NCBI GenBank assembly: GCA_020850375.1
Contig: JADZET010000027.1
Coordinates: 1-16,595 of the forward strand
Origin: Phycisphaeraceae bacterium
GTDB lineage: Bacteria; Planctomycetota; Phycisphaerae; Phycisphaerales; Phycisphaeraceae
Length of the DNA: 16,595 nt
Direction of reading: 5' to 3'
Part shown: piece by piece, positions 2,837 to 14,856 of the stretch
Layout of the letters: each line of letters begins with the position of its first letter
Numbering within the stretch: position 1 is the stretch's first letter
Position numbers and translations under genes: made by a program
Notes under the pieces: generated by a model
What the model was told of the DNA's origin: nothing
The model's database searches: none
The model's input: only the letters and a program-made list of their open reading frames with translations

Positions 2837-5275
2837 ATGATGATCGACCCCCCAACTCCGGAGGCTCCCTTGGCCTTTGACAGGCCGGCCCCACCCTCAG
2901 CCATCGACTGGGCGGCGTGCGGGCTGTGGCCCTGCCGGTGGATTCATGTCCAGGGGGCGGACGATCGGCCGCTCTTCGCGGCCTATCGCCTCACATGGCA
3001 ACAGGATGAGCCGCGAGTCGTCCAGGTCTTCGTCTCAGCCGACGAACGCTATGAGCTGCTTCTCGACGGCCGCCGGATCGGGCGCGGGCCCCAGCGAGGG
3101 GACACCACACACTGGCGGTACGAGACCCACGACCTGCACCTGGCGCCGGGGCCGCACGTGTTGAGCGCCCGCGTCTGGTCGCTCGGCGACATGGCCCCCT
3201 GGGCGCAGTTCTCCGCTCGTCACGGATTTCTCCTGCAGCCGCGCGACGCCGACCTCGACGCCCTCTTGGGCACGGGCGTCGCCCCCTGGCAGGCCCGGCG
3301 GTGCGACGCGATCCGAGCCGTCGCCGATCCACGCTTCACGCCCGTCGGCCCGGCGTTCGAACTCGACGGCGCCAAGCCCTCGTGGGAGTCGAGCCAGGGC
3401 GGTTGGCACGCGGCCCTGATGGCCCATCACGGCGCCCACGCGGCGAGCTTCAACAACGAGCGCCCCGTCCACCTGCTCGTCCCGGCCGAGTTGCCGGCCA
3501 TGCTCGACGAACCGATCCCGCTGGGCGATCAGGCCGTCGTGCGATTCGTCGAAGATCTACCGCCGGATCAGGACGTGGACACCCTGGCCGTGGACGTGAA
3601 ACGGGACCTGCCCGCCGAGCATCGCGCGTGGCAGGACATGCTCGCGGGACGCTCGGGCCTGCGCGTCGAACCAGGGCAGGCGAGACGGGTGATCATCGAC
3701 CTGCAGAACTACTTCTGCGCCTACCCCGTCGTTACGCTCCGCGACGGTGCCGGCGGCGTGGTCGAGCTCGGTTGGGCGGAGACGCTGCTGACCCAGTGCA
3801 ACCGCTGGGAGGGTAAAGGGCCGCGTGGTCTGATCGACGGACGCTTCTTCAACGGCCTGACCGACCGCTTCCTGACCCCAGGGGGGAACGAGGCGCGTCG
3901 TCTCGAAATCCCCTGGTGGCGATCCGGCCGCTTCGTCCAACTCGTCGTCCGCCCGGCGAGCGAAACGATTGAGGTTGTCGGCCTGGAGCTGCGCGAGACG
4001 CGTTACCCGCTGGAGATGCACGGACGATTCACCTGCCGGTCAGCCGAGACGACCTGGCCGCAGGGCATCGCCGAGATGATCCCCGTCGCCCTGCGCGGCC
4101 TGCAGATGTGCGCCCACGAGACCTACCTCGACTGCCCCTACTACGAGCAACTGATGTACGTCGGCGACACGCGCCTGCAGGCCCTGACCGGCTACGCCAT
4201 CGATCCCGACGACCGATTGCAGCGCAAGGCCCTGGTGACCTTCGACGCCTCCCGCCGGCCGGACGGACTGACGCAGTCGCGCTACCCGAGCTGGCGGATG
4301 CAGATCATCCCTCCCTTCTCACTGTGGTGGGTCGGCATGGTCCACGACTTCACCCTCTGGCGAGACGATCCCGGGCTCGTCCGCGCCTTGCTTCCGGGGG
4401 TCCACGCGGTGCTCGAGGCCTTCCTACTTCATCAACGACCGGATGGCCTGGTCGATCTTCCGGTGGGGTGGAACTTCACCGACTGGGTCCGCGGCTGGCG
4501 CAACGGCGTGGGCCCCAATGACCCCTCAGGCATCAGCGGCTTGGTGAACTGGCAGCTTGTCCTGGCCCTGCAAGAGGCGGCGGAACTGGACGAGCACGCC
4601 GGCGAACCGGAGTTGGCGGCACGTTGGCGACGACTGGCCCAACAGATCGGCGGCCTCTTGGTCGAACGATTCTGGGATGAATCCCACGGCCTCCTGGCGG
4701 ACGATCCGGGGCACGAGCACTTCTCAGAGCACAGCCAGGCGATGGCCGTCCTGGCGGGGGCGCTCAGTCCCTCGCAGACCGATCTCGTGCTGCGGAATCT
4801 TCAGCGACAAGACCATCAGCCCCCCCTCGCCCGCGCAAGCCTCTACTTCTCCCACTACCTCCTCGAGGCCTTCGCCCGCCTGGGCCGGATGGACCTTTTC
4901 TTCGATCGCCTGCGGGTCTGGTTCACCCTCAAGGAACTGGATCTGAAAACCACCCCCGAGCAGATGCACGACCCGATCCGCTCGGACTGCCACGGCTGGG
5001 GTGGGCATCCGCTCTATCACCTGCTGGCGACAATCGCCGGCATCCGCCCTGAGGGCTGGTCCTTCAAGAAGGTCCGCATCACGCCACAACTCGGCCCGCT
5101 CGATCACCTCCGCGCCGCCATGCCCCACCCCGCCGGCGGGTCGATCGAAGTCGAATGCGAGAAACGCGCCGACAAGCTCAGCGGCATCATCCGATTGCCC
5201 GCCCATCTTGCCGGTGAATTGGCGCTCGACGGCCGCGTGATCGCGCTCCGAGCCGGCCGCGAGACGCGTTTCTAA
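2837..5275 (+). CDS. GH78-type alpha-L-rhamnosidase-like glycoside hydrolase
   Basis: An 812-residue protein with beta-sandwich domains up to about residue 400, an (alpha/alpha)6 barrel (about 405-745) and a small C-terminal beta domain. The barrel begins with the family motif HETYLDCPYYEQLMYVGD (428-444). In GH78 the segment DCPxRDExLGWTGD carries the general acid; here Asp432, Glu437 and Asp444 are kept in a one-residue shorter variant. RSDCHGWGGHP (715-725) is typical of the group, and Glu708 just before it is a candidate base. No signal peptide is visible, so it probably acts in the cytoplasm on imported oligosaccharides. The ATG at 2837 has GAGG 7 nt upstream; ATG 2786 and the much longer upstream frame (from 2003) lack support and overlap the lipoprotein antisense. 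Other terminal deoxy-sugars are possible substrates. Confidence 0.88.
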   Translation: MMIDPPTPEAPLAFDRPAPPSAIDWAACGLWPCRWIHVQGADDRPLFAAYRLTWQQDEPRVVQVFVSADERYELLLDGRRIGRGPQRGDTTHWRYETHDLHLAPGPHVLSARVWSLGDMAPWAQFSARHGFLLQPRDADLDALLGTGVAPWQARRCDAIRAVADPRFTPVGPAFELDGAKPSWESSQGGWHAALMAHHGAHAASFNNERPVHLLVPAELPAMLDEPIPLGDQAVVRFVEDLPPDQDVDTLAVDVKRDLPAEHRAWQDMLAGRSGLRVEPGQARRVIIDLQNYFCAYPVVTLRDGAGGVVELGWAETLLTQCNRWEGKGPRGLIDGRFFNGLTDRFLTPGGNEARRLEIPWWRSGRFVQLVVRPASETIEVVGLELRETRYPLEMHGRFTCRSAETTWPQGIAEMIPVALRGLQMCAHETYLDCPYYEQLMYVGDTRLQALTGYAIDPDDRLQRKALVTFDASRRPDGLTQSRYPSWRMQIIPPFSLWWVGMVHDFTLWRDDPGLVRALLPGVHAVLEAFLLHQRPDGLVDLPVGWNFTDWVRGWRNGVGPNDPSGISGLVNWQLVLALQEAAELDEHAGEPELAARWRRLAQQIGGLLVERFWDESHGLLADDPGHEHFSEHSQAMAVLAGALSPSQTDLVLRNLQRQDHQPPLARASLYFSHYLLEAFARLGRMDLFFDRLRVWFTLKELDLKTTPEQMHDPIRSDCHGWGGHPLYHLLATIAGIRPEGWSFKKVRITPQLGPLDHLRAAMPHPAGGSIEVECEKRADKLSGIIRLPAHLAGELALDGRVIALRAGRETRF

Positions 5276-7197
5276 ACCCTCGGCAGCCAGACGCGCATCC
5301 GCCCCACCCCTTCCGGGGGCGGGGGCGACGGCCGATTCGCCCAGAGGTGATAAGGGACGGCCGTGAGCTTGGCCGGCCGCCACGCCTGGTCCCTGCCGTG
5401 GGGCTTGTAGAGCGTGCTCTTCCAGCGTTCGAGATCGACGACCACGCCCTGGGCCTCGACGAAGGGCACGCCGTCAAAGATCTGCGATTTCTGCACGATC
5501 CGCAGCGGCTGCGCCGGGTCGATCCTCGCGGCATCGACACGATCGCCCTCAAGCTGGTCGCACTGCTCGAAGCAGTAGACCACCGGCCCGCGCTGCACGG
5601 CCAGGCAGCCCGCCGCCGACTCGATCCGCGGGTGCGCCTCGACCAGCACCGCCGGCATGGCCAGATCCAGCTCCACCACGTCGCCGCGCTGCCAGCGTCG
5701 CTCGAGCGTCAGGTACCCGTCAGCGTCGCGATCAACCTTCTGCGCCTGGCCGTTGACCTTCACCGTCACCTGCTCGCACCACCCCGGCCGCCGCAGGCTC
5801 AGCGAAAGGTCGTGCCCGTCGGACTCGATCACTTCGAATCTCACCAGGCCCGACCACGGGTACTCCGTCTTGACCTCGAGCGTCAGCCGCCCGGCCGAGG
5901 CGGTCTCGGCGACGATCCGGCTGGCGGTGTACTGGTGAACCTGCACGCCGCGGTCGTCCGTCGTGGCGATCAGGTGCTCGAGCGTGGCCAGCGTCCGCAT
6001 CACGTTCGGCGGGCAGCAGGCGGTGCGATACCACGGCGTCCGCCTCAGACCCCCGTCGCCCGCCAGGCGGTTGTCGTAGAACCAGGAGGCGAAATCGCGC
6101 CCGATCCCGCTGAGCACCCCGTTGTAGAGCGCCCGCTCGATCACGTCGGCGAAGCGAGACAATCCCGTGGCCAGGAGCATACGCCACCCGAGCATCATCG
6201 TGGCGATCGTGGCGCAGGTCTCGCAATAGGCCTTGTGATTCGGCAGCTCGTAGGCGTCGCCGAAGGACTCGTCGCGGTGGTGCACGCCGTTGCCGCCGGT
6301 GATGTACATCTTGCGGTACTCGAGGTCGTCCCACATCCGAAGGCCGGCGTCGAAGAGGGCTTGCTCACCCGTCTCGAGGTAAACGTCCACCATGCCGCAG
6401 ATCAGGTAGAGCTGCCGCACGGCGTGCCCCTCGACCTCGGTGCAGTGGCGGACGGGAAGGCGGTCCTGCAGGTATCCCCCGTTCTTACCCGGCGGGCGCA
6501 GAATGCCCTTGCCCCGGCAGTCGATCATGGCTTGACCGAGCGCCAGGTAGCGCTTCTCGCCCGTCAACCGGTAGAGCTCGACCAAGGCCATCTCCGCCTC
6601 GGGGTGGCCGCAGGCCCCCTCGCGCCGCCCCGGGCCGAAGACCGCGTCGAGCAGATCAGCGAACCTCTCCGCCACGCGCAGAAGCTCACGCCCCTGAGTC
6701 GCGCGGGCGTGGGCGACGGCCGCCTGGAAGAGATGCCCCGCGCAGTAGATCTCGTGGTCACTGTGGAGCTTGGTCCAGCGTGCCTCCGGCGGCTGGGTGA
6801 CCTGGTAGAACGAATTGAGGTAGCCGTCGGGCGCCTGCGCCGCAACCAGCAGATCCGCTGTGCGGTCCATCATTGCCTGCAACTCGGGCGAGGACTCGCG
6901 TCCCAGCTCCCACGCCAACGCCTCGAGCCACTTGTAAAGGTCCGAGTCGATGTAATACGGCCCCTTGAACGCCGTGGCGCCCCCCGGAAGGCGGCCGGCG
7001 GCCAGGCCCAAGTCGTGAAAGTTGCCCGCCTCCTCCAGACGCTGGTACCCCGCCTCAAGGCCGATCCGCCGACACCGACTCTGGTAGAAAGCGAGGTAGC
7101 CGCCCCGGAGCTGCGCCTGCGGCATGCCGACAGGTCGGAGCTTGGCGTAGGGGCTGGCGGTGACGTCGACGAGAGCAGCGCTGCGAGGCGTGGTCAT
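5272..7197 (-). CDS. GH127 beta-L-arabinofuranosidase family protein
   Basis: A 641-residue protein, normal for GH127 (formerly DUF1680): an (alpha/alpha)6 barrel followed by beta-sandwich domains. Residues known to be essential in Bifidobacterium HypBA1 (Glu322, Glu338, Cys340, Cys417, Cys418) have clear counterparts: Glu310 in HHRDESFGDAYELPN, Glu326 and Cys328 in YCETC, and Cys394-Cys395 in CCPPN. The cysteine nucleophile and zinc site are therefore intact. There is no signal peptide. The ATG at 7197 is preferred over the ATG at 7212 because GGAGG lies 8 nt upstream and overlaps that earlier ATG. The 3' end overlaps the convergent rhamnosidase gene by 4 bases. Probable role: removal of terminal beta-L-arabinofuranose, or a related residue, from plant or algal oligosaccharides. 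Confidence 0.93.
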   Translation of the reverse strand: MTTPRSAALVDVTASPYAKLRPVGMPQAQLRGGYLAFYQSRCRRIGLEAGYQRLEEAGNFHDLGLAAGRLPGGATAFKGPYYIDSDLYKWLEALAWELGRESSPELQAMMDRTADLLVAAQAPDGYLNSFYQVTQPPEARWTKLHSDHEIYCAGHLFQAAVAHARATQGRELLRVAERFADLLDAVFGPGRREGACGHPEAEMALVELYRLTGEKRYLALGQAMIDCRGKGILRPPGKNGGYLQDRLPVRHCTEVEGHAVRQLYLICGMVDVYLETGEQALFDAGLRMWDDLEYRKMYITGGNGVHHRDESFGDAYELPNHKAYCETCATIATMMLGWRMLLATGLSRFADVIERALYNGVLSGIGRDFASWFYDNRLAGDGGLRRTPWYRTACCPPNVMRTLATLEHLIATTDDRGVQVHQYTASRIVAETASAGRLTLEVKTEYPWSGLVRFEVIESDGHDLSLSLRRPGWCEQVTVKVNGQAQKVDRDADGYLTLERRWQRGDVVELDLAMPAVLVEAHPRIESAAGCLAVQRGPVVYCFEQCDQLEGDRVDAARIDPAQPLRIVQKSQIFDGVPFVEAQGVVVDLERWKSTLYKPHGRDQAWRPAKLTAVPYHLWANRPSPPPPEGVGRMRVWLPRV

Positions 7198-7263
7198 CGC
7201 GAGGGCCTCCATTCCCGGAGACCGTTAGGTTACGGCCAATTCATCCCGACGGCGATTCGCCGA

Positions 7264-9441: not shown

Positions 9442-9469
9442 TTGCAAATCATGATGATCATTGTATCAT
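9442..9469 (+). promoter_or_regulatory. Promoter for a leaderless gene
   Basis: TTGCAA (9442-9447), 16 bases, then TATCAT (9464-9469; 5 of 6 matches to the -10 consensus). The expected transcription start, about 7 nt downstream, falls on the first ATG at 9476, which has no Shine-Dalgarno sequence. This fits a leaderless messenger. Confidence 0.45.
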
Positions 9470-9480
9470 AGTGATATGAT
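9448..9480. promoter_or_regulatory. Cluster of AT-rich palindromes over promoter and start codon
   Basis: Three exact inverted repeats lie side by side: ATCATGAT (9448-9455), ATGATCAT (9454-9461), and ATCATA-GTGA-TATGAT (9465-9480). They cover the spacer, the -10 box and the start codon of the next gene, as a repressor operator would. The composition is strikingly AT-rich against the surrounding high-GC sequence. Confidence 0.5.
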
Positions 9481-9895
9481 GATGGGCAAGCGTAAAGCCA
9501 TAAAAACGGGTGAAAAGGCTGTTCAGATCCCACACCCTTCCTGGGACATGGACTGGCTGTCCGATCGTTCCCCCGATAGTTCCAAAGCGCACGGCCAGCC
9601 GCCCGATGCCGCCACGCAGGCCCGCAAGGACAAGCCCTCACCCCCAAGGCCTGAACCTGTCAGCATGGGACAAGTCCTTGGTATAGCGCTATTTCTGAGC
9701 GGAAGCCAGTGGCACGATACCCACAAAATCTTCCGTCGGAAGCTGCCGGCGGTGGTCAGAAAATTCCTCGACCAGGCGGACCGACTGACGCTTGAGCGCT
9801 GTGTCGTCGAGGCCATGACCCGGCTCAATCAAACAGATCTCTCCCCCACACGTTCGGCGGGGCGAACGCCCTCGAACAAGCGAAAAAAGGCTTGA
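9476..9895 (+). CDS. Hypothetical protein, probably leaderless
   Basis: A 139-residue protein with three consecutive ATG codons (9476, 9479, 9482) at the front and no ribosome site. An in-frame TTG at 9461 is possible but lies before the predicted transcription start. Residues 1-65 are basic, then Pro/Ser-rich and probably disordered. Residues 66-125 (MGQVLGIALFLSGSQW, IFRRKLPAVVRKFLDQADRLTLERCVVEAMTRL) are predicted helical. The C-terminus is basic (NKRKKA). I do not recognise a family. It is divergent from the ribbon-helix-helix-like gene, and the next gene's -35 box overlaps its stop codon. Confidence 0.55.
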   Translation: MMMGKRKAIKTGEKAVQIPHPSWDMDWLSDRSPDSSKAHGQPPDAATQARKDKPSPPRPEPVSMGQVLGIALFLSGSQWHDTHKIFRRKLPAVVRKFLDQADRLTLERCVVEAMTRLNQTDLSPTRSAGRTPSNKRKKA

Positions 9896-9961: not shown

Positions 9962-10675
9962 ATGATGAGCGAACACCTGATCCTTAGCCAGTTTGAGGCC
10001 CGCTCCTGGCGAAAGCTGCTCCAGGGCCTGCAACACAACGGCGTGGATGTGCCGGCGCATTTGGTGAGCCGGCTGACCGAGCCCTCCGCGGGGGCGATCG
10101 CCTTGGGGCTGCGCCGTTTGCTGGAGTTGAGCTTCGGTCTTAGCCGGGGCGCTCTGGACATGCTCCGGACCCTGCTCGATCAGCAGCGACCGGACGGGAG
10201 CTGGGCGGGCGATCCGGCGCCCACAGCCGCCGCTATGGCGGCGATCGGGGCGTGCCTGGTTGGCTCACTCAAGCCAAGCCTGCCCCCGGATCTGGCCGTG
10301 CGGGCATCGCTGGCTCAGCGGCGTGGCCTAAGCGCCCTGGCGGTCATGCAGGACGACGAAGGGACCTGGAGACATCCCGGCGAAAGCTCGGATCGTCAGA
10401 CGGCCGGCTCGGCGTGTTGGATCCGGGAGCTGCTGTCGCGCGATGCGGAGGCGCGCCAGTGCCTGCACCTCGATCCCGTCGTGGCCACGCCTGGTTCACC
10501 GGGCCGGCGCACACGAACCGCTCGCCGCGCCGAGACCTCCCCCACCGCCGTGGCCTCACGCTTTCACCGCCGCGAGCCGCACCCCCACGGCGGCCAATCA
10601 ACCCGGCCGGGGCTGAGCTACCGGATGGGACGAGCCGGCTGGGGATGGGATGAGCGGGCCTGGCCCGCGGCGTAA
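9962..10675 (+). CDS. Hypothetical protein with two QW-like (alpha/alpha-toroid) motifs
   Basis: A 237-residue protein, starting at ATG 9962 with GAGGG 7 nt upstream (a second ATG follows at once). Residues about 45-160 contain two repeats of the pattern helix-QxxxGxW-helix: DQQRPDGSW (73-81) followed by PTAAAMAAIGACL, and MQDDEGTW (129-136) followed by QTAGSACWI. Such QW-type repeats are typical of squalene/terpenoid cyclases, prenyltransferase beta subunits and related alpha/alpha toroids. Two repeats are too few for a full toroid, and the cyclase DxDD motif is absent, so enzymatic cyclase activity is unlikely. The C-terminal 60 residues are Arg/Pro-rich and low complexity. It could be a degraded or minimal relative, or an unrelated helical protein. 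Confidence 0.6.
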   Translation: MMSEHLILSQFEARSWRKLLQGLQHNGVDVPAHLVSRLTEPSAGAIALGLRRLLELSFGLSRGALDMLRTLLDQQRPDGSWAGDPAPTAAAMAAIGACLVGSLKPSLPPDLAVRASLAQRRGLSALAVMQDDEGTWRHPGESSDRQTAGSACWIRELLSRDAEARQCLHLDPVVATPGSPGRRTRTARRAETSPTAVASRFHRREPHPHGGQSTRPGLSYRMGRAGWGWDERAWPAA

Positions 10676-10746: not shown

Positions 10747-11835
10747 TCAGCGGATGATCCGCGCCCCGCCGCCCTTGGCCACGCGCTCGAGCTCTTCCCT
10801 GGTGATCTGGCTCGTGTCGCCGCGCGTCGTCTGTAACAGCGCGCCGTGGCACGTGCCGTAGTTCACCGCCTCCTGCGGTCCCTTGCCCTGGAGGAACGCG
10901 TAGGCGAACCCCGACGCGAACCCATCGCCGCCGCCGACGCGGTCCTCGATGATCAGACGATCGAACCTCGGGCCCTCATAGAACCGATCCTCAGCCGCCC
11001 AGTAGAGAATGGCGGACCAGTGGTTCTCGCTGGCGCTGACCACCTCACGCAGGGTCGTGCCGATGACCTTGAGGTTCGGGTAGTCCTTCGCCACGCGGCG
11101 GACCATTTTCTTGTAGTTCTCGATGGGCAGGGATTCGAGCTTCTCCGACGTGCCCTCGACCTCGTAGCCCAGTACCTTCTGGAAGTCCTCCTCGTTGCCG
11201 ATCAGGCAGTCGATGTACTTCATCAGCGGCTTGGTCGTGGCGATGGCGTCTTTCGACGACCAGAGCTTCGAGCGGAAGTTCAGGTCATAGGAGACGATCG
11301 TGCCGGCCTCGTGGGCGGCCTGCAGCGCCTCGGCGGCGACCTGGCGGGTGGTGGGGCTCAGGCAGGTGAAGATGCCGCCGGTGTGCAGCCAGCGGACGCC
11401 GCCGCCGAAGAGCTTCTTCCAGTCGATGTCGCCGGGCTTGAGTTTGGACGTGGCCGAGTGGCCGCGGTCGTAGAGCGTGACGCTCGCCCGTGGGCCGGCG
11501 CCGACCTCGGTGAAGTTCAGCCCGATGCGCGCCTCCCGCCCCACGCCGTCATAGGGCATGGTCACCACGTGCCCCGTGTCCATCCCCACCGTCCGGGCGT
11601 GGTTGAGGATGATCTTGCCCACCGGGTTGTCGACCAGCGCGCCCACCCAGCCCGTGCGGAAACCCAATCGCGACAGTGCGTAGGCCACGTTGTACTCCCC
11701 GCCGCCGACCCAGACCTCCAACTGCGTGGCGAACTCAATCCGTCCCGCGCCGGGCGGGCTCAGGCGGATCATGCACTCACCGAGGGACACGAGGTCGAGT
11801 TCGGATCGATCGGCCGGCTTGAGAGGCAGATTCAT
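10747..11835 (-). CDS. PfkB-family sugar kinase, 2-keto-3-deoxygluconate kinase-like
   Basis: A 362-residue ribokinase-fold protein. It shows the N-terminal LGECMIRLSP strand, the substrate-binding GGGEYNVAYALSRLG (44-58), HTGGIFTCLSP, the central strand SYDLNFRSKLW (182-192), NEEDF, and the PfkB signature DRVGGGDGFASGF (298-310) with catalytic Asp304. The NxRxxLW context and GGGD signature fit 2-keto-3-deoxygluconate kinases, which make KDPG for the Entner-Doudoroff and uronate routes; other keto-sugar acids or fructose-type substrates are possible. The ATG at 11835 is preferred over a GTG at 11847; neither has a strong ribosome site. It is divergent from the enolase homologue across 275 bp, which suggests shared control of sugar-acid catabolism. 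Confidence 0.88.
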   Translation of the reverse strand: MNLPLKPADRSELDLVSLGECMIRLSPPGAGRIEFATQLEVWVGGGEYNVAYALSRLGFRTGWVGALVDNPVGKIILNHARTVGMDTGHVVTMPYDGVGREARIGLNFTEVGAGPRASVTLYDRGHSATSKLKPGDIDWKKLFGGGVRWLHTGGIFTCLSPTTRQVAAEALQAAHEAGTIVSYDLNFRSKLWSSKDAIATTKPLMKYIDCLIGNEEDFQKVLGYEVEGTSEKLESLPIENYKKMVRRVAKDYPNLKVIGTTLREVVSASENHWSAILYWAAEDRFYEGPRFDRLIIEDRVGGGDGFASGFAYAFLQGKGPQEAVNYGTCHGALLQTTRGDTSQITREELERVAKGGGARIIR

Positions 11836-12034
11836 GGATTCACTCACCGAAAAGGGTTGCTGAAGGATCCGCCGGCCGTATCGCGTGCAGCCGGGGCCGA
11901 GAAGCGGAGGATTCCGAGCGGTATCGACTGGTTTTCTCGGGAAAGATAGGTATTCTGACCGGCCGATCCTGAAGTGTCAAAGACACCAGATCCTCACGCA
12001 GAAAACGGAGATGCTTGAATCCGAGCCCGTGCTG

Positions 12035-12049
12035 CGGGCGTCCCGCCCG
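12035..12049. repeat. GC hairpin in the kinase/enolase divergent region
   Basis: CGGGCG (12035-12040) pairs with CGCCCG (12044-12049) over a 3-nt loop, within a GTGCTGCGGGCGTCCCGCCCGT context. The text looks like a dispersed intergenic hairpin repeat, but only one copy is in this window. It would lie in the 5' leader of the enolase homologue. Confidence 0.35.
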
Positions 12050-12110
12050 TGTGATTCGAAGATCCCGGGTGGCTCAATCCCCCCGATTTGCACAGAAAGA
12101 CAACCCATCC

Positions 12111-13403
12111 ATGAGTGTCCGCATCCGCAACGTCCTGGCCCGTGAGGTGATCAACGAGAAAGGCCTGCCCACCGTCGAGGTCGACGTCCAGCTCGACGAC
12201 GGCAGCTTCGGCCGGGCCACCGCGCCCGGCGGCACCTCACGCGGCATCCACGAGCCCGTCGACCTCAAGGACGGGGACAAGACCTACTTCCACGGCCTGG
12301 GCGTCAGCAAGGCCATCCACAACGTCAACACCGAGATCCGCGCCCTGCTCATCGGCAAACATGTCGAGGCTCAGGAAGAGATCGACCGCGCGATGATCGC
12401 CCTCGACGGCACGCCCAACCGCTCGCGCCTCGGCGGCAACGCGATCATCGCCACCTCCATGGCCGCCGCCAAGGCCGCCGCCGCCTCGCACCGCGTCCCC
12501 CTCTGCGAACAGATGGGCGGTGGCTGCGAGATCCCCCTGGCGTTCATCTACATGATGTTCGCCGGGCCGGCCTACGTCGGCGGCGACGTCTGCGACTTCC
12601 AGGAGTTCGCCCTGATCGCCCTCTCGGCCAAGAGCTACAGGGAGGGCTATCTCTCGACCCTGGGCATCTACCGCCGGCTCACCGATCTCCTGGCCCAACG
12701 CGCCGGCCAACCCTCGCCGCGCAACAAGGACGTCGCCGGCAGCTCCGTCGGCCGGTTCGATTCCAACGAGGAGGCCCTGGCCACGCTCACGCGATTCATC
12801 GAGGAAGAGGGCTTCACCCCCGGCAAAGACTTCGGCTTCTACCTCGACATCGCCGCCAGCCAGCTCTACGACGGCAAACACTACCACCTCCACGCCGACA
12901 AGCAGACGCTCACGCCCCCGCAGATGATCGACCGGCTCGAAGATCTCTGCCGCAAGTACCCCATCGTGAGCATGGAGGACTGCCTCTACGAAGAGGACTG
13001 GGACGGCTGGAAAGCGCTGACCGACCGGCTGGGCAAGAGGGTCCAGATCGTCGGTGACGACCTCTTTGTGACCAACGCGGCCATGCTGGCCAAGGGCGCG
13101 AAGATGGGCGCCGCCAACGCCGTGGTCATCAAGCCCAATCAGGTCGGCACGCTGACCGAGACCTACGAGGCCATCGCCCTGGCCAAGAAGCTCGGGTACG
13201 GCACGATCATCTCGCCGCGATCGGGCGAGCTCTGGGACCCCTACATCCCCCACCTGTGCGTCGGGCAGAACCTCGGGCAGGGCAAGCTCGCCGGGGCCCA
13301 CTCGCGCGGCGAGTCGAATCTCAACGAGTTCTCCCGCATCATCGACCACCTCGGCGACCGAGCCGTCTACCGCGGCCGCGAGGTGCTGGCGAGGTTCCTC
13401 TGA
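12111..13403 (+). CDS. Divergent enolase-family protein with incomplete enolase active site
   Basis: A 430-residue protein with the full enolase length and fold. Kept (yeast numbering in brackets): metal ligands Asp246 (LDIAAS, 246), Glu289 (SMEDCLYEED, 295) and Asp316 (GDDLFVTN, 320); catalytic base Lys341 (IKPNQVGTLTET, 345); Lys392 (396); loop Ser43 (39); and the QEF Glu (168). Changed: the NGGEHADN loop with His159 is replaced by AGPAYVGGD (151-159); the GDEGGYAP motif with Glu211 is replaced by AGSSVGRF, and no Glu occurs in residues 181-219; SHRSGE with His373 reads SPRSGE (368-373). It can probably bind Mg2+ and abstract a proton, but standard 2-phosphoglycerate dehydration is doubtful. 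The ATG at 12111 begins the homology; the ribosome site is weak. A MOFRL kinase homologue follows after 28 bp. I read this as a paralogue with another substrate, not the housekeeping enolase. Confidence 0.88.
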   Translation: MSVRIRNVLAREVINEKGLPTVEVDVQLDDGSFGRATAPGGTSRGIHEPVDLKDGDKTYFHGLGVSKAIHNVNTEIRALLIGKHVEAQEEIDRAMIALDGTPNRSRLGGNAIIATSMAAAKAAAASHRVPLCEQMGGGCEIPLAFIYMMFAGPAYVGGDVCDFQEFALIALSAKSYREGYLSTLGIYRRLTDLLAQRAGQPSPRNKDVAGSSVGRFDSNEEALATLTRFIEEEGFTPGKDFGFYLDIAASQLYDGKHYHLHADKQTLTPPQMIDRLEDLCRKYPIVSMEDCLYEEDWDGWKALTDRLGKRVQIVGDDLFVTNAAMLAKGAKMGAANAVVIKPNQVGTLTETYEAIALAKKLGYGTIISPRSGELWDPYIPHLCVGQNLGQGKLAGAHSRGESNLNEFSRIIDHLGDRAVYRGREVLARFL

Positions 13404-13431
13404 TCCTCGCCGTGGCGCGGAGGCAGTCGCG

Positions 13432-14856
13432 ATGATCATCCGCAACCGCGATGAGCTGCTGGCCCATGGCAACGTCAGGGGACGAACCCTGGCCCTGGAC
13501 ATCCTCGAGCGCACCCTGCAACGCGTTGATGCTCGCGAGCTTGTCAGGCGAACGGTCCGGCTGGAGGCGGGTGGCTTGAAGGTGGCTGATCAGGACTACC
13601 CGCTCGCGGAGATCGAGAACATCTACGTCCTTGGGGCCGGCAAGGGCGTCTACCACTTCGCCGCAGCTCTCGAGGAACTGCTGGGCGACCGCATCCGCGA
13701 GGGCCTGGTGATCGAGAAGCACCTGGGCGCGATGGACCAGGCCCGCCGGAAGATCCAGCGTCTTCGCCACATCCGCGTCCACGAGGCCGGCCACCCCGTT
13801 CCCGACGCCGCCGGGGTCGACGGCGCCGGGCGGCTGATCCAGCTCGCCCAGCGGGCGCAAGCGAACGACCTGGTCTTCGTCTGCGTCGTCGGCGGCTGCT
13901 CGAGCCTGACCACCCTGCCGGCCGAGGGGCTGAGCCTCCTGGACATCCAGCTCGCCACGCATGACCTGATGCAGAGCGGCGCGGACGTCGAGATCCTCGA
14001 CGCCCTGCGCACCACCACCACGCAGCTCCAGGGCGGCCAGCTCGCCCGCCACATCCACCCGGCCAGGATCGTCAATCTCGTGGTTGACGATGACATCTGG
14101 CGCTACCCACACGGCTGGGAGCAGCGGCCCGACGAGGCCGGCTGGGGCCCCAGCGCCCCGGTCAAACGCGCCGACCATCAGCGCCTGTCAACGCTGGTTC
14201 AGACACTCCAGCATCGCGATCTGTGGCAAGGACTTCCGGGGGCTATTCGCCGTCACCTCAAGCGCGGTGACCCCGGCCGTGACGCCCTGACCGCCGATGA
14301 CTTTCAGCGGCTGGGCGTGCGATGGCGGACCGTGGTGATGGCCGACCCCCGCACGAGCGCCGAGGCCGCACGCGATGCGGCCAAGGAGTCGGGCCTGGCG
14401 GCCGTGATCCTCTCGACCACCATGGAGGGTAACGCCGCCCAGGCGGGCATCACCGTGGCGGCCGTGGCCAAAGAGATCGCCCGCAGCGGCCACCCCGTGT
14501 CACGACCCGGCGCGGTGATCATCACCGGGGAGACGACCGTCCGCCTTGAGCGAGGCCACGGCCAGGGCGGCCCGAATCAGGAATGCGTCGTCAGCGCCGC
14601 GACGCGTCTGGAAAACGCGGCCAACATCGTCATCGCCTCGGTCGGCACCGATGGAACAGACGGCCCGACCGGCATCGCCGGCGGCATCGTCGACGGCCGG
14701 ACGCTCCCGCGTGCCCGTCAACACGGCATAAACCTGCCGGCCGAGCTCGACAGACACAATGCCTCGCACGTGCTGCTGTCGCTGAGCGACGCGATCTACT
14801 TCAGCGAGCCGGGGACGAATCTCTGCGACCTGACCGTCATCGTCGTCGCCGACTGA
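13432..14856 (+). CDS. Divergent DUF4147/MOFRL glycerate-2-kinase-like protein
   Basis: A 474-residue protein with GGAGG 8 nt before its ATG. It follows the class II glycerate kinase plan: YVLGAGKGVYHF (65-76, with the conserved GAGK lysine at 71), EAGHPVPDAAGVDGAG, a DUF4147 domain to about residue 300, and a C-terminal MOFRL domain with TGETTVRLERGHGQGG, SVGTDGTDGPTG (403-414) and GTNLCDL. Several signature residues differ. The usual SGGGSALL is VGGCSSLTTLP (153-163), the phosphate-binding VRKHLS is LRTTTT (192-197), and GGRNQE is GGPNQE (379-384), losing a highly conserved Arg. The SDVxGDD...IASGPT segment is also rebuilt (VVDDDIWRYPHGW). It is co-directional with the divergent enolase, 28 bp apart, so probably one operon. 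True glycerate kinase would supply enolase with 2-phosphoglycerate; this copy may use a related acid or have lost kinase activity. Confidence 0.87.
   Translation: MIIRNRDELLAHGNVRGRTLALDILERTLQRVDARELVRRTVRLEAGGLKVADQDYPLAEIENIYVLGAGKGVYHFAAALEELLGDRIREGLVIEKHLGAMDQARRKIQRLRHIRVHEAGHPVPDAAGVDGAGRLIQLAQRAQANDLVFVCVVGGCSSLTTLPAEGLSLLDIQLATHDLMQSGADVEILDALRTTTTQLQGGQLARHIHPARIVNLVVDDDIWRYPHGWEQRPDEAGWGPSAPVKRADHQRLSTLVQTLQHRDLWQGLPGAIRRHLKRGDPGRDALTADDFQRLGVRWRTVVMADPRTSAEAARDAAKESGLAAVILSTTMEGNAAQAGITVAAVAKEIARSGHPVSRPGAVIITGETTVRLERGHGQGGPNQECVVSAATRLENAANIVIASVGTDGTDGPTGIAGGIVDGRTLPRARQHGINLPAELDRHNASHVLLSLSDAIYFSEPGTNLCDLTVIVVAD

Follow-up and report, generated by a model that had tools for sequence, protein, structure and literature searches.

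Results

Tandem enolase-like and kinase genes

The window analyzed here, a stretch of 16,595 bases from a Phycisphaeraceae contig, carries in tandem a gene for an enolase-like protein and a gene for a glycerate 2-kinase-like protein, both belonging to divergent subfamilies that were named class I. The enolase-like open reading frame (ORF; 12015-13403, + strand) matched Pfam Enolase_N (6.6e-45) and Enolase_C (5.3e-64), and with the ATG at 12111, which opens the conserved N-terminus, the protein has about 430 amino acids (12111-13403, +). It is followed by the kinase gene (13432-14856, +), coding for 474 amino acids, in which Pfam DUF4147 (8.4e-47) and MOFRL (2.3e-26) were detected over the curated cut-offs. 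The intergenic gap of 28 bp (13404-13431) is consistent with co-transcription of the two genes. These positions and the gap, noted earlier in a first-pass annotation of the window, were confirmed from the ORF list. In the following, L-numbers denote loci and G-numbers genomes.

The same arrangement was found in the near-identical relative G001, whose locus L001 (JADZCW010000272.1, from the metagenome-assembled genome (MAG) SJ746) contains GH127, NUDIX, PfkB, enolase-like, kinase and DUF6298 genes in the window's order, with protein identities of 84-98%. Between the window and L001, the ratio of nonsynonymous to synonymous substitution rates (dN/dS) was about 0.11 for the enolase-like gene and about 0.20 for the kinase gene, and these low values indicated purifying selection on both.

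Residue changes fixed in the class I enolase-like proteins

Relatives of the enolase-like protein were taken as the best 120 of 7,899 matches, class I fragments lower down being uncounted, and 94 class I sequences were aligned, of which 88 have at least 400 amino acids; P0092, the sister of class I, was excluded. Profile A2 was built from 36 of 95 sequences and profile A3 from 26 of 45. Residues are numbered as in yeast enolase. In enolase, Lys345 is the base, Glu211 the general acid and Ser39 the second Mg ligand, while an Arg and a Ser bind the substrate, as described in PMC4450660. The alignment showed that K345, the metal ligands D320 and E295, R374, S375 and K396 are present in all 94 class I sequences, the third metal ligand, D246, in 93 and E168 in 92. 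At the E211 column Glu was never found (0/94), and Ala was the commonest residue (72). His was likewise absent from the columns of His373 and His159, which are active-site residues of enolase, in 94/94 sequences; in 2/94, a His stands no more than two columns away from H159. The 25 canonical enolases of the same listing, many of them from a single genus, all retained His373 and His159.

In the window protein E211 is replaced by Ala and H373 by Pro, H159 is lost, loop 1 reads PGGTSRG, and loop 2 has an insertion around GPAYVG. Since the residue changes are fixed across the 94 class I sequences, they are a property of the subfamily and not noise in a single sequence. The class I proteins formed their own clade with 100/100 support. 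The substitution T40R was also considered as a class I signature and dropped, because R or K at position 40 occurs in canonical-type Bathyarchaeia enolases as well. Compared to enolase (EC 4.2.1.11), the window protein is about 46% identical to the nearest canonical enolases among the matches listed and shares the fold, the Enolase_N and Enolase_C domains, Lys345, the metal ligands, Arg374/Ser375, Lys396 and Ser39, whereas class I differs in the three missing residues, the loop 2 insertion and its separate clade.

These losses could be read to mean that the protein eliminates nothing. It would then epimerize or isomerize a 2-phospho acid, or be a non-catalytic enolase with a regulatory or structural role. 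The enolase superfamily includes racemases. The best-known losses hit groups tied to the departure of hydroxide, to judge from the role given to Glu211 in PMC4450660. The retention of the base and metal ligands in 93-94 of 94 sequences, together with the low dN/dS, speaks against a dead protein, and we regard this explanation as very unlikely.

The class I kinases

The kinase relatives comprised the best 120 of 7,349 matches, of which the first 45, with P0121 as the window's own, make up the class I subfamily and the other 75 served for comparison. The RKH motif was found in 0/45 class I kinases versus 61/75 others, and its His in 1/45 versus 74/75. The stretch ahead of GWGP, read from sampled sorted lengths, measured 13-18 residues in class I and mostly 6 in the others, and F457, P460 and C465 were present in 45/45 class I kinases. 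The 14 class I kinases placed in the tree formed a 100/100 clade.

The window kinase resembles the class II glycerate 2-kinases (T. maritima TM1585, T. tenax GK), to which it is about 30% identical; it has both the DUF4147 and the MOFRL domain and shares the fold of 2b8n and 1x3l. Differently from these, class I lacks RKH, has the longer stretch before GWGP and carries F, P and C at 457, 460 and 465. The window kinase also scored far below the cut-offs of the NCBIfam glycerate 2-kinase equivalog models (124.8 versus 670 and 98.1 versus 550). The earlier proposal that both active sites of the pair had changed was thus upheld at the level of the subfamilies, in 94 enolase-like proteins and 45 kinases.

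Recurrent pairing of divergent enolases with kinases

In L001 and L002 the class I enolase gene lies next to the class I kinase gene; in L004 a LarA gene (about 1.4 kb) separates the two. Divergent enolases of other classes were paired with a kinase as well, namely class II in L073, L076, L108 and L110, class III in L074, and class IV in L077, L078, L091 and L123. Class II enolases keep Glu211 and have Glu in place of His373, and class IV enolases have lost Gln167, Glu168 and Glu211. In class IV, a very divergent class (L077, L078, L079, L080, L086, L087, L089, L091, L092 and L123) the Ser-Arg order is also swapped at 374/375, and Lys396 is replaced by Arg in 9/10; the hosts are Bathyarchaeia and one Spirochaetales genome, with four copies each in G005 and G007.

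In total, 12 of the 20 divergent enolases whose surroundings could be determined were in tandem or near-tandem with a kinase, compared with 0/28 canonical ones (Fisher p 1.8e-6), a comparison in which the classes were assigned from residues post hoc, the genomes were chosen for class I or kinship, and the rows are non-independent. As 8 of the 28 canonical enolases sit in genomes without any kinase match, the test was repeated without such genomes and gave 12/19 versus 0/20 (p 1.3e-5). The counts omit the window, the divergent loci at contig ends (L005, L006, L079 and L109) and the partial canonical ones (L088, L127, L128 and L129); L075, in which the H373 stretch is missing, was scored as canonical, and the 28 canonical neighbourhoods were read from match coordinates, some near contig ends. 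The enolase gene came first in six of the 12 pairs and the kinase gene in the other six, so the adjacency is not merely one inherited arrangement. The first-pass annotation had proposed that the two proteins diverged jointly, and it would have been refuted by the absence of such pairs from other genomes; these counts, with 100/100 class I clades on both sides, bear it out.

The trees and contigs pointed the same way. The longest source contig was exactly as long as that of a class I enolase for 11/45 class I kinases versus 0/75 other kinases. The class IV enolases formed a 100/100 clade and so did their partner kinases, the kinase clade also including two unpaired kinases; the L073 kinase, which is in two pieces, is absent from the kinase tree. 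The distances among class I enolases and kinases correlated over 13 pairs (r 0.54, matched by 1 of 10,000 shuffles), of which 11 were inferred from equal longest-contig sizes and only P0002/P0123 (= L002) was confirmed in DNA; a shared species history could also yield this correlation.

Housekeeping copies and distribution of class I

Canonical copies were looked for in G001 and in G002, the Phycisphaeraceae genome of L002. In each, a canonical enolase that retains Glu211, His373 and His159 is encoded away from the pair, and a class I glycerate kinase of family PF02595, unrelated to the window kinase, was found in G001, G002 and G003. A canonical-type enolase is also present in G004, G005 and G006, the His373 stretch being missing from the G004 copy. 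Because G001 and G002 encode both enzymes elsewhere, the enolase in canonical and the glycerate kinase in an unrelated form, the class I pair is not the housekeeping one. The lack of a canonical enolase elsewhere, which the first-pass annotation had named as grounds for giving up its proposal, was not observed in the two nearest genomes. Enolases of G007 and G221 that look truncated coincide with masked stretches.

An exact short-pattern scan with one genome per species yielded seven class I loci (L001-L007), which is a lower bound. By genome assignment, which may err for single contigs, the hosts are MAGs of Planctomycetota, KSB1, Spirochaetales, Deltaproteobacteria and Bathyarchaeota. Class I proved rare in named genomes: profile positives amounted to 2/256, 1/198, 1/82, 0/155, 1/198 and 1/392 genomes, all of them already known loci, in samples of four classes (those of G007, G002, G004 and G006) and two phyla (those of G003 and G002), the two Planctomycetota samples overlapping. 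Absence from a genome was judged by the score gap between class I (1e-219 or better) and the next matches (1e-135 or weaker), and 4 of 11 weaker matches in one genome sample were taken as non-class-I by score alone. The class of G004 gave 0/155 genomes at 1e-140, a threshold that misses broken genes, since the class I gene of G004 itself has an irregular reading frame. No class I relative was found among 175 pattern matches in viral contigs.

An alternative explanation is that the pair still converts glycerate to 2-phosphoglycerate and then to phosphoenolpyruvate (PEP), with an alternative acid such as Glu168 in place of Glu211 and the remaining changes due to drift or tuning. The preserved fold, base, metal ligands and Arg374/Ser375, the presence of E168 in 92/94 sequences, a TIGR01060 score above the cut-off and the clear homology of the kinase to class II glycerate kinase would all agree with this. 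Against it stand the absence of each of E211, H373 and H159 from 94/94 sequences, the canonical enolase and unrelated glycerate kinase of G001 and G002, and the rarity of class I, which was found in 1 of the 392 Planctomycetota genomes sampled. On this evidence we consider it unlikely.

Sugar-related genes beside the pair

On the strand opposite to the pair lies a PfkB sugar kinase gene (10747-11847, -; Pfam PfkB 2.5e-24), whose nearest solved relative is the T. maritima 2-keto-3-deoxygluconate (KDG) kinase 2afb (E 2.2e-67). Its scores against the NCBIfam KDG-kinase models stayed below the cut-offs (199 versus 440, 113 versus 400 and 32 versus 400). A GH127 protein is encoded at 5272-7212 (-), and its sole NCBIfam match was aceric acid hydrolase (442 bits versus a cut-off of 950); aceric acid is a sugar of rhamnogalacturonan-II. 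Two further window ORFs, 9461-9895 (+) and 9962-10675 (+), have counterparts in L001 at 3438-3857 and 3926-4636 with similar starts.

On this basis the pair could form the lower part of a pathway for sugar acids, acting with the KDG-type kinase and the glycoside hydrolases on a longer, methylated or deoxy acid from plant polysaccharide. The resemblance of PfkB to KDG kinase, the gene order conserved in L001, the aceric acid hydrolase match, far under its cut-off, and the GH43 and apiosidase-like proteins near the L002 pair are in line with such a pathway. Relatives of the window's PfkB, GH127, NUDIX and DUF6298 proteins, however, accompanied the pair in L001 alone, and none was found at E 1e-5 in L002 (20 kb) or in L003-L007, where the stretches measured 3.9-20 kb (5.4 kb for L005, 3.9 kb for L006). 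A lower pathway of this kind is therefore quite unlikely, and the PfkB kinase and the hydrolases were set aside as module members; PfkB probably lies outside the two-gene module. The link of the pair to the KDG-type kinase and the sugar hydrolases, put forward in the first-pass annotation, did not extend beyond L001, and its pathway from 2-keto-3-deoxy sugar acids was not supported by the other loci, which point to imported hydroxy acids (TRAP, LarA).

The non-phosphorylative Entner-Doudoroff branch uses glycerate kinase and then enolase, according to PMC2063504, and the window shares with it homologues of a class II kinase and of enolase. The branch differs in that both window proteins are altered, that G001 and G002 have a canonical enolase and another glycerate kinase elsewhere, and that no pathway genes accompany the pair consistently across the examined loci. 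A Pfam scan of ten window proteins recognized no KDG aldolase, gluconate dehydratase or glyceraldehyde-oxidising gene.

Gene neighbours at other loci

Among the class I loci, L003 contains TRAP DctPQM, a saccharopine-dehydrogenase-like protein, DUF1847 and LarA, and L004 contains alanine dehydrogenase, LarA and the kinase. L007 has a B12-binding protein, a URO-D-family protein, for which MtaA/CmuA models were nearest with scores below cut-offs, and phosphoglycerate mutase, with an MtmB-like protein 3.6 kb off. In L002, besides GH43 and the apiosidase-like protein, 11730-12848 was examined as a corrinoid methyltransferase candidate; it gave only a sub-cut-off Pfam DUF7517 match (E 0.031), no NCBIfam match, and in a single comparison a weak BLASTP match to the MtaA/CmuA-like protein of L007 (E 0.004). 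In class II, TctABC (a TTT transporter) and a D-2-hydroxyacid dehydrogenase surround L073, and LarA lies beside L108. In class IV, MtmB-like proteins are found beside L080 and L092, and aldo/keto reductase and esterase-like proteins at L077. The neighbours that could be identified included no phosphonate enzyme.

Two loci of other divergent enolases were also recorded. L074 (G004 contig 490) has an operon-like series of a mandelate-racemase-type enzyme, a DUF4147 kinase, the class III enolase, an MTTB-family protein and a peptide-type ABC importer. In L084 (G006 contig 99), an unpaired divergent enolase with Glu211 changed to Gly and His373 to Glu adjoins a mandelate-racemase-type gene.

LarA enzymes are 2-hydroxy acid isomerases (PMC7583248), and the word enolase occurs 0 times in the main text of that source. 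The malate and lactate racemase models were nearest to the LarA neighbours, all below cut-off. As each of the eight other genomes searched has 2-6 LarA matches and G001 and G002 have none, the adjacency of LarA is suggestive only.

Discussion

The fixed residue changes, the recurrent pairing and the neighbouring genes lead us to propose, with a probability of about 0.55, that the class I pair would act as a module that catabolizes, in two steps, a 2-hydroxy acid different from glycerate. That the pair is a real, selected, non-housekeeping module is very probable, and that it acts on a non-glycerate acid is fairly probable. Both reactions and the class of substrate are inferred from sequence. 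In the first step, the DUF4147/MOFRL kinase would use ATP to phosphorylate the 2-hydroxyl, as the T. tenax class II glycerate kinase does on D-glycerate. The enolase-like protein would then bind the 2-phospho acid by means of its conserved Mg ligands, Arg374/Ser375 and Lys396; Lys345 would abstract the C2 proton, while Mg and Arg374/Ser375 would hold the enolate and phosphate. Because Glu211, His373 and His159 are gone, the C3 group would be expelled or handled otherwise than the hydroxide of 2-phosphoglycerate; it may be speculated that the loss of Glu211 permits a leaving group other than hydroxide. The product would be PEP itself, a substituted form of it or an enol phosphate that has undergone rearrangement.

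Several observations weigh against the proposal of a hydroxy-acid module. The NCBIfam phosphopyruvate hydratase equivalog TIGR01060 accepts the window protein with 404 bits (cut-off 300), a Glu lies within two columns of the E211 position in 12/94 class I enolases, and Arg40, being present in canonical-type Bathyarchaeia enolases, is not diagnostic. The partner kinases of class II enolases do not group as a single clade, and no class I kinase was found in the available sequence of G003, G005, G006 and G007. No canonical enolase was found in the G003 sequence examined, whose completeness is uncertain, though the PF02595 kinase is present there. The search for LarA gave no match in G001 or G002, so the hydroxy-acid clue is external to the window's lineage, and the neighbourhoods vary among loci and point to no single substrate. 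The two-gene module is thus frequent, but as no class I kinase was found in the available sequence of four of the seven class I genomes, the pairing may not be obligatory.

A broader explanation would be that enolase and kinase were co-opted jointly on several occasions as exchangeable cassettes for phosphorylation and elimination, which would form PEP or an analogue from 2-hydroxy acids whose C3 group (for example an amine, sulfite or phosphate in place of hydroxide) leaves without acid help. The methyltransferase-type neighbours, MTTB in L074 and MtmB-like proteins in L080 and L092 (class III/IV), and the B12-binding and MtaA/CmuA-like proteins in L007 (class I), would be in keeping with a methylated amine as the leaving group in some of the classes. 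This explanation, with a leaving group other than hydroxide, appears quite unlikely.

Enolase is generally regarded as a family with a single function. Carboxyphosphonoenolpyruvate synthase, the enolase homologue of phosphonate antibiotic clusters, is a precedent for an enolase homologue that catalyzes a different reaction. No paper on an enolase and DUF4147 pair was found in the open-licence literature, subscription journals being outside its scope. Since TIGR01060 accepts the window protein, automatic naming hides class I and likely labels its members enolase, and an enolase match in a metagenome bin is not always proof of glycolysis. If the pair does act on another hydroxy acid, the enolase active site would have been re-purposed by removal of the acid at C3 with the substrate-binding Arg and Ser retained, and the module would give Planctomycetota, KSB1, Spirochaetales, Deltaproteobacteria and Bathyarchaeota a so far unrecognised entry to central metabolism.

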